Shown piece after piece: positions 1 through 6,355 of a stretch of 22,384 bases of DNA. Both the position numbers and the translations under genes were made by a program. Source of the DNA: a virus. Location of the stretch: the IMG/VR virus record IMGVR_UViG_3300027722_000091, positions 1-22,384 of that record; one strand, written 5' to 3'. The notes beneath the pieces were generated by a model that was not told where the DNA came from, ran no database searches, and was given only the letters and a program-made list of their open reading frames with translations. How positions within the stretch are numbered: position 1 is the stretch's first letter; every line of letters starts with the position of its first letter.

Positions 1-542
1 TCATCCATCGTCATCAGCTCTTCGCGAGCTGCCTCATCAGGATGCACGACCTTGCCCTGCATCGGGTCGTTGGCGTGTGCGACCAGAGCAGTTTCCATCG
101 CGTGACACGTATCACACAACAGCATCTGCTCTTTCACATGCTGGTGCTTGAAGGGCTGGAGAGTCTCTTGAAGCGTGCCGCACGCCTCGCAAGGCTCAGT
201 CTTCTTTTCCCTTTCCGTTGGAGCTTCGGTCGGCCTCGGGGAAGCTTCGGAACTCGGAATCGGAGAGTCCAGGTTTTCTGAGTCCATATCGCTTACCGCA
301 TCGAGAGCATCGAAGCTCCCTGACATGCTCTTGTCCGTGGTGCTTGTCTCGTCGGGCGTTACGCTCGATGAGGAAGCCTCCACACTTGGTGCAGGTATCT
401 GGCATTTTTCTTCCTCGGCATCAATCGCATCCGACATCAGTCCAACTTCCGTCTCGACCGCTTCGAGACACGACTCACACATGGATTCCTCGGAGTCGAG
501 GGCCACCGGGTCGTTACAGACTTCGCAAAACCTCTGTGTCAT
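1..542 (-). CDS. Zinc-ribbon protein, partial (runs off left edge)
   Basis: The frame opens at ATG 542 and stays open for 180 codons to the window edge, so the C-terminus is missing. It has two Cys pairs near the N-terminus (C6/C9 and C22/C25), a Ser/Thr/Pro/Glu-rich stretch at about residues 46-117 that looks disordered, and a second set of pairs (C118/C121 and C143/C146). This suggests two small zinc-binding modules joined by a flexible linker. The start is one base after the stop of the gene at 544-771, and AAGGTGA just upstream can act as ribosome binding site. The whole linker is covered by another zinc-ribbon frame (196-405). The function is unknown; short zinc-ribbon proteins in phage early regions often bind nucleic acid or host proteins, but nothing here identifies a target. 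Confidence 0.7.
   Translation of the reverse strand, partial: MTQRFCEVCNDPVALDSEESMCESCLEAVETEVGLMSDAIDAEEEKCQIPAPSVEASSSSVTPDETSTTDKSMSGSFDALDAVSDMDSENLDSPIPSSEASPRPTEAPTEREKKTEPCEACGTLQETLQPFKHQHVKEQMLLCDTCHAMETALVAHANDPMQGKVVHPDEAAREELMTMD
196..405 (-). CDS. Nested zinc-ribbon ORF inside the larger zinc-ribbon gene
   Basis: This is a 69-residue frame lying wholly inside the 1-542 gene, in the -1 frame relative to it. It has the layout of a real zinc ribbon: C5-x2-C8 followed by GGF, then C33-x2-C36 followed by GKRY. GAGGAAG lies about seven bases before its ATG, a good ribosome binding site. Its codons (many GAC, GAG, AAG, CTC, ATC) resemble those of neighbouring genes, while the host frame over the same bases is a low-complexity Ser-rich linker. 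Three explanations are possible: a true overprinted gene, a -1 frameshift product fused to the first 46 residues of the host frame, or an assembly indel. The function is unknown. Confidence 0.5.
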   Translation of the reverse strand: MPDTCTKCGGFLIERNARRDKHHGQEHVRELRCSRCGKRYGLRKPGLSDSEFRSFPEADRSSNGKGKED

Positions 543-5848: not shown

Positions 5849-6355
5849 ATGCCGAAGTCCAAGTTCGCACTCATCACCATCCTCGACGGGATTCCGGGCC
5901 AGCGTCCCGACAACAGCTTGCCAGGTCAGGGTGGAGGCTCAGGCAACAGGCCTGACAACACGCTGCCCGGTCAGGGAGGCAGCGGCAACCGTCCGGACCA
6001 GGGTCTCCCCGAGCATCCCGAGGTCTGGCCGCCCGAGAATCCGCCGTCGCCGGACAACTCGCTGCCCGACAACGAGCTGCCTCCTGGGATTCCCGTCCAT
6101 CTGCCGGTGTTCCCGCCCGTCGACCCCGGCTACGGCAAGCCCGAGGGCGGCTCAGGGAATCGCCCCGACAACTCGCTTCCCGGATCGGGCAACCGTCCCG
6201 ACAATTCCCTGCCCGGTCGGGAGCAGAAGTTCGAGCTGAAATACAGCCTGCTCTACGGCTGGGTGCTCGTTCCGTGCGACTCCGACGGCGGTGCGTCAGG
6301 CGCGCGCCCCGACAACACTCTGCCCGGCGGTGGAGCGCAGCCGAAGCGAAAGTAG
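5849..6355 (+). CDS. RPDNSLPG-repeat low-complexity protein
   Basis: A 168-residue protein rich in Pro, Gly, Asn and Asp. It carries about seven copies of an 8-residue motif RPDNSLPG or RPDNTLPG, separated by Gly/Ser/Gln linkers, with a Pro-rich middle (GIPVHLPVFPPVDPGYG). Near the C-terminus a short ordered patch (KFELKYSLLYGWVLVPCDSDG, about 125-145) breaks the repeats. There is no signal peptide or membrane segment. A good ribosome binding site (AGGAGATAGGAA) precedes ATG. Similar PDNSLP repeats occur in uncharacterised phage proteins. It is the first of four low-complexity genes upstream of the large terminase. A virion or assembly role is guessed from position only. Confidence 0.7.
   Translation: MPKSKFALITILDGIPGQRPDNSLPGQGGGSGNRPDNTLPGQGGSGNRPDQGLPEHPEVWPPENPPSPDNSLPDNELPPGIPVHLPVFPPVDPGYGKPEGGSGNRPDNSLPGSGNRPDNSLPGREQKFELKYSLLYGWVLVPCDSDGGASGARPDNTLPGGGAQPKRK

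Follow-up and report, generated by a model that had tools for sequence, protein, structure and literature searches.

We identified, at the left end of an uncultured virus record, two overlapping frames that very probably form a real overprinted, dual-coding gene pair, with both products presumably translated: a short gene for a predicted zinc-ribbon protein lies wholly inside a longer gene, over a linker of the protein encoded by the latter. An overprinted pair had been put forward in a preliminary description of this DNA, and it was borne out by the persistence of both frames in every relative that the nested or host protein retrieved, by the pattern of changes over codon positions and by the recurrence of the arrangement in a distant second clade.

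Layout of the gene pair and features of the nested protein

The window analysed here is the whole virus record, 22,384 bases long. On its minus strand, a host frame of 180 codons, recognised from its open reading frame and from relatives, runs from 542 to 3 and is incomplete, being truncated by the contig end. The nested frame, recognised in the same way, comprises 69 codons at 405-196 on the minus strand, wholly within the host frame and in phase +2 relative to it. It encodes a basic protein (69 aa, pI 9.3) with CxxC pairs at residues 5-8 and 33-36, and thus has the two cysteine pairs that had been claimed for it. A GAGGA at 412-416 (minus strand) probably serves the nested gene as its Shine-Dalgarno site, as judged from the sequence and from the purine-rich site found in all 13 sequence types examined. 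Read in the host frame, the bases of the nested gene (195-404, minus strand) encode a linker rich in S, P, E, T and D, delimited by its composition and by the AF2 model of the relative L002, in which the matching residues have pLDDT values under 40. Two CxxC...CxxC modules, both visible in the sequence of the minus strand, flank this linker, zinc module 1 at 468-527 (host residues 6-25) and zinc module 2 at 105-191 (host residues 118-146), so that the Ser/Pro/Glu-rich stretch between two zinc modules was also as described. The complete host protein of the relatives is about 301-366 aa long and consists, in this order, of zinc module 1, the disordered linker, zinc module 2, a helical region and a basic C-terminal part.

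Other features of the window were recorded along with the pair. Small frames with Cys pairs also occur in its left-end region at 768-878, 1222-1479 and 1418-1666, all on the minus strand, and the phage thus appears to produce many small proteins of the zinc type. An 11-base unit forms two short arrays, at 2528-2587 and 2891-2965, about 300 bases apart; their units, GGTATGTCTCT and AGATACCAGAG, are roughly mutual reverse complements and look iteron-like. Frames run across similar sequence at about 3602-3793 of the relative L119, which suggests that iteron-like arrays are kept in some form. A low-complexity frame at 5849-6355 (plus strand), with many GNRPDNSLPGQG-type repeats, is located upstream of the structural genes.

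The four cysteines of the nested protein were invariant in the seven sequence types of the clade of the window (clade 1) and in five proteins of the second clade (clade 2), the first pair being CxC in two clade-1 types. AF2 modelling from the same seven-row alignment as that used for the host protein gave three strands within residues 1-44, with block pLDDT values of 76-85 over residues 1-40. We searched for known structures and families related to this model. Its best VIA-align match was chain V of 9k2g, a Pol III complex (33 residues, rmsd 1.4, 30% identity), with a Z score of 3.1 that is far below the level that shows kinship. None of the 208 Foldseek matches reached E ≤ 0.001, the structure comparisons led to no family assignment, a sequence search of the PDB gave no match (best E 0.34), and all Pfam zinc-ribbon families stayed below their curated cut-offs, the best being DUF7351 with 18.9 bits against 31.2. 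The clade-2 nested proteins were likewise below the Pfam cut-offs. The zinc ribbons of transcription proteins, such as RNA polymerase III factors and NrdR, likewise combine two Cys knuckles with a three-strand fold, but the nested protein has no sequence match to them in the PDB and a structural Z score of only 3.1. We describe the nested protein as a predicted zinc ribbon, which would bind zinc. The presence of a basic zinc-knuckle protein and an acidic protein on the same DNA, with an adjoining helicase, suggests nucleic acid or RNA polymerase as the ligand, a guess to which we give about an even chance; it is likewise a guess that the nested protein acts together with the neighbouring SNF2-type helicase or with the host protein.

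Conservation and selection in the two reading frames

Relatives were collected from IMG/VR, where a scan revealed the nested frame in nine further contigs. One more relative (G014) emerged when 41 further records with a terminase were searched, and it was also met in another IMG/VR scan; these 41 belong to a set of 66 terminase loci, the rest comprising eight in records already known and others that were mostly short. Clade 1 thus amounts to 11 records and seven sequence types, the window included. Host and nested frames were open across the whole overlap and in the same phase in all 11 records (7/7 types), and the nested frame was not broken by a stop in any of them. The nested start codon was kept in all seven types, as ATG except for a GTG in L003. 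Identity of the nested protein to that of the window ranged from 92% down to 49%, and its alignment over the seven types contained 25 invariant columns, all four cysteines among them. No standalone relative of the nested protein was found in the IMG/VR scans, where every confirmed locus was a nested one, none was confirmed among 72 candidate stretches from 84,980 species genomes, and none was present in INPHARED. Similarly, the host protein was not found outside clade 1 in IMG/VR, in the species genomes (33 candidates) or in INPHARED. The pair is, at the level of sequence comparison, without match in the databases searched. The absence of further relatives is weak evidence, since the scans need short conserved stretches and missed clade 2.

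To see which frame constrains the overlap, we counted parsimony changes at the three host codon positions in the codon alignment of the seven types. Positions 1, 2 and 3 had undergone 186, 146 and 374 changes in the flanks and 27, 69 and 35 in the overlap core, and the contrast between positions 2 and 3 in core and flanks was highly significant (Fisher p=3.7e-13). Host codon position 2 is the wobble position of the nested frame, and changes concentrate there inside the overlap and at position 3 in the flanks. The comparison of synonymous and non-synonymous change in both frames, suggested as a check in the preliminary description, was performed on 21 pooled pairs without correction. It gave a pN/pS of 0.41 for the nested core, close to the values of the host flanks (0.36 and 0.41). 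In the core the host frame reached 1.01 and the third frame 1.25, and unused frames in the flanks gave 1.26-1.57. The shift in codon positions together with the pN/pS of 0.41 indicates that purifying selection of an ordinary kind acts on the nested frame, which is the chief constraint on the overlap.

The host frame leaves a different trace. Disorder-promoting residues made up 77-92% of the host overlap, compared to 62-66% expected when the synonymous codons of the nested gene were redrawn (p ≤ 0.008 in 7/7 types; these p-values are not mutually independent, as the seven types are related). When the nested gene's own codons were permuted, the excess reached p<0.05 in just three of the seven types, as expected if codon choice itself carries the signal. 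This choice is visible at the four-fold degenerate wobble positions of the nested gene, where G accounted for 3.5% (seven types pooled), compared to 27% in structural genes and 30% in the host flanks, with A at 35% and C at 47%. Nested R and G codons mostly carry A at the wobble, which yields E or D in the host frame, and nested A, T, P and S codons mostly carry C, which yields P. Nested codon choice thus tracks the host outcome, and the codon use of the nested frame, reported earlier as ordinary, is instead G-poor at the wobble. In the AF2 model of the L002 host protein (seven-row alignment) the helical parts were confident and residues 50-111, which are very nearly coextensive with the overlap, had pLDDT under 50. 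Host residues in the overlap showed no conservation beyond the expectation set by the nested frame (21 pairs, lowest p 0.19). As the exact host residues are not extra-conserved, the support for the host frame within the overlap comes from its openness and its composition.

The initiation signals of the nested gene were then compared with those of other start-like codons. A purine-rich site preceded the nested start in 13/13 sequence types, and its pairing energy was better than the mean of start-like codons of the same gene in all 13 but within the top 5% in only seven. In the window it amounted to -5.9 kcal/mol, a strength matched by 16% of the 31 other start-like codons in the host gene; several relatives have much better nested ribosome binding sites. 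The ribosome binding site announced as good is therefore present, but of only moderate strength in the window. These data suggest that the nested protein is most likely started internally on the host mRNA. We propose that a single mRNA would give two proteins, a long acidic host protein initiating at 542 and a short basic zinc-ribbon protein initiating at 405 inside the host gene, from its own Shine-Dalgarno site, and ending just before zinc module 2 of the host. The conflict between the frames would be split, with purifying selection holding the residues of the nested ribbon and the host needing only an open, disordered linker rich in S, P, E, D and T. Because the host would need composition only, the nested wobble bases would be free as long as this composition is kept.

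Other explanations for two open frames on the same bases were weighed against dual coding. An A-run at 405-410, to which the preliminary description had drawn attention, could have hidden a sequencing or assembly indel splitting one frame in two. Yet the same span is open in both frames not only in the window but also in 10 relatives that come from 10 differently numbered metagenomes and differ in the bases at the run, which an indel cannot explain, and both are open again in the second clade; we consider this artefact excluded for practical purposes. The idea that the nested frame is open by chance and its ribbon-like pattern spurious deserves no more credit, even though short frames are common in GC-rich DNA. 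The nested span stayed open in 0.37% of shuffles of synonymous positions of the host codons in the window (0.15-3.7% across the seven types), and the two-pair ribbon pattern did not occur once in a control of 87,495 nt of out-of-frame stop-free stretches from helicase genes. The low pN/pS of the nested frame relative to unused frames and its invariant columns, cysteines included, also speak against chance. A programmed -1 frameshift from host to nested frame, fusing zinc module 1 to the nested ribbon, had been raised as a way of swapping modules. It would profit from the nested frame being the -1 frame of the host and, in the window, from the A-run just upstream of the nested start. However, this run is not conserved, a canonical X XXY YYZ heptamer in host phase is absent from the overlap and its vicinity in all seven types, the nested frame is open for no more than 15 nt (5 codons) ahead of its start in 5/7 types, and the nested start codon is kept in all of them, which makes a frameshift very unlikely.

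A more serious alternative, though still an improbable one, is that of three adjacent genes, with a real nested gene and a host frame that happens to be open across it and is not translated over this stretch. The lack of conservation of host residues beyond the level imposed by the nested frame and the host pN/pS of 1.01 in the overlap speak in its favour, and, given the nested protein, the host frame was open by chance in 25-70% of draws, depending on the type. On the other hand, the host frame keeps its register from one side of the overlap to the other in 7/7 types and the host ORF of clade 2 is likewise continuous, changes are fastest at host position 3 in either flank, and the composition of the overlap is far from expectation. 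Moreover, no in-frame ATG, GTG or TTG common to at least 6/7 types was found between the start of the overlap and zinc module 2, so that a separate gene for this module would be without a kept start.

A second clade at the helicase locus and the origin of the nested gene

In the relatives, the first large gene that follows the host gene downstream encodes an SNF2-type helicase (PF00176, PF00271), which we used to look for the same arrangement in more distant phages. A helicase profile scan confirmed 233 loci, 80 of which were kept; four of these (L175, L193, L214 and L224) were left out of the upstream survey because the helicase match starts at or near the locus edge. The two-pair ribbon pattern was found in phase +2, in the gene just upstream of the helicase, in 16 of the 76 remaining loci, comprising six of clade 1, nine of clade 2 (L176, L178, L181, L182, L183-L186 and L189) and a tentative one (L192). 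Phase-1 patterns in L172, L173 and L238 were rejected, as they resemble small zinc genes of the ordinary kind over which a long frame is open by chance. The clade-2 helicases are about 41-43% identical to the clade-1 query. As in clade 1, the clade-2 host ORF runs through and the nested ribbon lies at the same locus and in the same phase, within an S/P/E-rich stretch; the clade-2 host proteins have no CxxC modules. Their overlap composition was shifted in five of six cases (p ≤ 0.0014), with L189 not significant (p=0.18). The codon-position contrast was weak in clade 2, whose flanks are near saturation.

Profile searches with the nested proteins covered 28,906 ORFs of 175 loci. With the clade-2 profile, four clade-1 types came next after its own members (E 0.003-0.13), the G014 type had an E of 6.4 and the L009 type was not among the best 60 matches listed. 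With the clade-1 profile, four of the five clade-2 types came next (E 0.026-0.33), and the fifth, L183, followed behind unrelated rows with an E of 1.2. The kinship of the nested genes of both clades is thus indicated by profile scores and by their same place and phase. A joint profile detected no nested-type ribbon outside the host gene at E below 0.2 in the 175 loci. The ribbon-like frame at 3838-3954 of L192 (CQKCGG...CTKCGK), in phase +2 in the gene upstream of the helicase, had an E of only 0.69 against the clade-1 profile and was absent from the joint-profile matches at E ≤ 1; it may tentatively represent a third lineage of the nested gene.

An unrooted helicase tree was built from 63 rows, after 13 of the 76 had been dropped as identical. 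All 11 ribbon-bearing rows, L192 counted, fell into one group of 17 with a support of 99/90; three of the other six rows of this group had no ribbon and three were too short upstream to tell. Outside the group, 42 of the 46 rows had no ribbon and four were too short. The syntenic genes of distant relatives share the general build, with an N-terminal part that varies, followed by a helical and a basic C-terminal part, and the nested frame is absent. N-terminal zinc modules turn over fast in L161, L162, L165 and other syntenic genes, with none, one or several CxxC pairs. The C-terminal part of the host protein showed fair kinship to the distant syntenic genes (hhalign probability 31%, E 5e-4), and the case for their relationship therefore draws mainly on the shared position upstream of the same helicase. 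Within the bounds of an unrooted tree and a modest host homology, this distribution suits a single gain of the nested gene followed by at least two losses, with the host frame first.

Mean log relative codon use was 0.04-0.13 for the nested frame and -0.05 to 0.07 for the host overlap, which weakly favours a greater age of the nested frame, against its restricted distribution. We did not use this measure to decide, since both frames are shaped by the overlap itself. The earlier idea of a young frame tolerating an old one is plausible, and codon use and distribution disagree on which of the two is older. The +2 frame of outgroup linkers has few hydrophobics, but about three stops per 60 codons. 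A review of viral overlaps describes de novo proteins of +2 frames as having many basic and Cys residues and few hydrophobic ones (PMC8227390), and the basic, Cys-rich make-up of the nested protein fits this description. It is conceivable, though we lean slightly against it, that the zinc-ribbon domain was born de novo once, by +2 overprinting of a disordered linker in the ancestor of a single helicase clade, and has since outlived the folded modules of the host, which turned over around it. Under such a de novo origin, a host linker selected for composition only would allow two proteins to share DNA without shared constrained residues.

Known parallels and significance

Nested out-of-frame phage genes are already known, and the closest in logic is the lambda Rz/Rz1 pair, in which the o-spanin gene is embedded in the i-spanin gene and linkers are reported to be mutationally silent and replaceable (PMC5295617). 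In both cases a small phage gene lies wholly within another in a different frame, where the functional part of one protein coincides with a replaceable linker in its partner (PMC5295617). They differ in that Rz1 is in the +1 frame and the nested gene of the window in the +2 frame, and in that Rz/Rz1 are membrane and lipoprotein lysis proteins, whereas the window pair consists of a predicted zinc ribbon and an acidic helical protein beside a helicase. Hepatitis B virus (HBV) offers a second likeness, a disordered, fast-changing polymerase spacer between folded domains lying over the surface gene, for which spacer and overlapping gene have been proposed to be of modular origin (PMC9093120); HBV is however an animal virus with other proteins, and its overlap extends over the reverse transcriptase domain (PMC9093120). 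The de novo viral proteins of +2 frames resemble the nested protein in being basic and Cys-rich, but de novo viral proteins are reported to be biased to disorder overall, unlike the window pair, where the nested protein is predicted to be folded and the host linker to be disordered (PMC8227390). Among the publications listed in literature searches, none was on this pair as judged from its title or abstract opening, and none brought together a zinc ribbon, an overlapping gene, a phage and an alternative reading frame.

The pair is unusually clean, as both frames can be compared in many relatives and related loci without the nested frame give polarity. The division of labour is simple and testable, residues for one protein and composition for the other. 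A gene finder restricted to a single frame per stretch would lose one of the two genes, and such pairs may therefore be missed across uncultured phages. The pair also makes the origin of a folded metal-binding domain inside an existing gene directly testable; if the de novo origin is true, Ser/Pro/Glu linkers, with their basic and hydrophobic-poor +2 frame, would be natural cradles for such domains.
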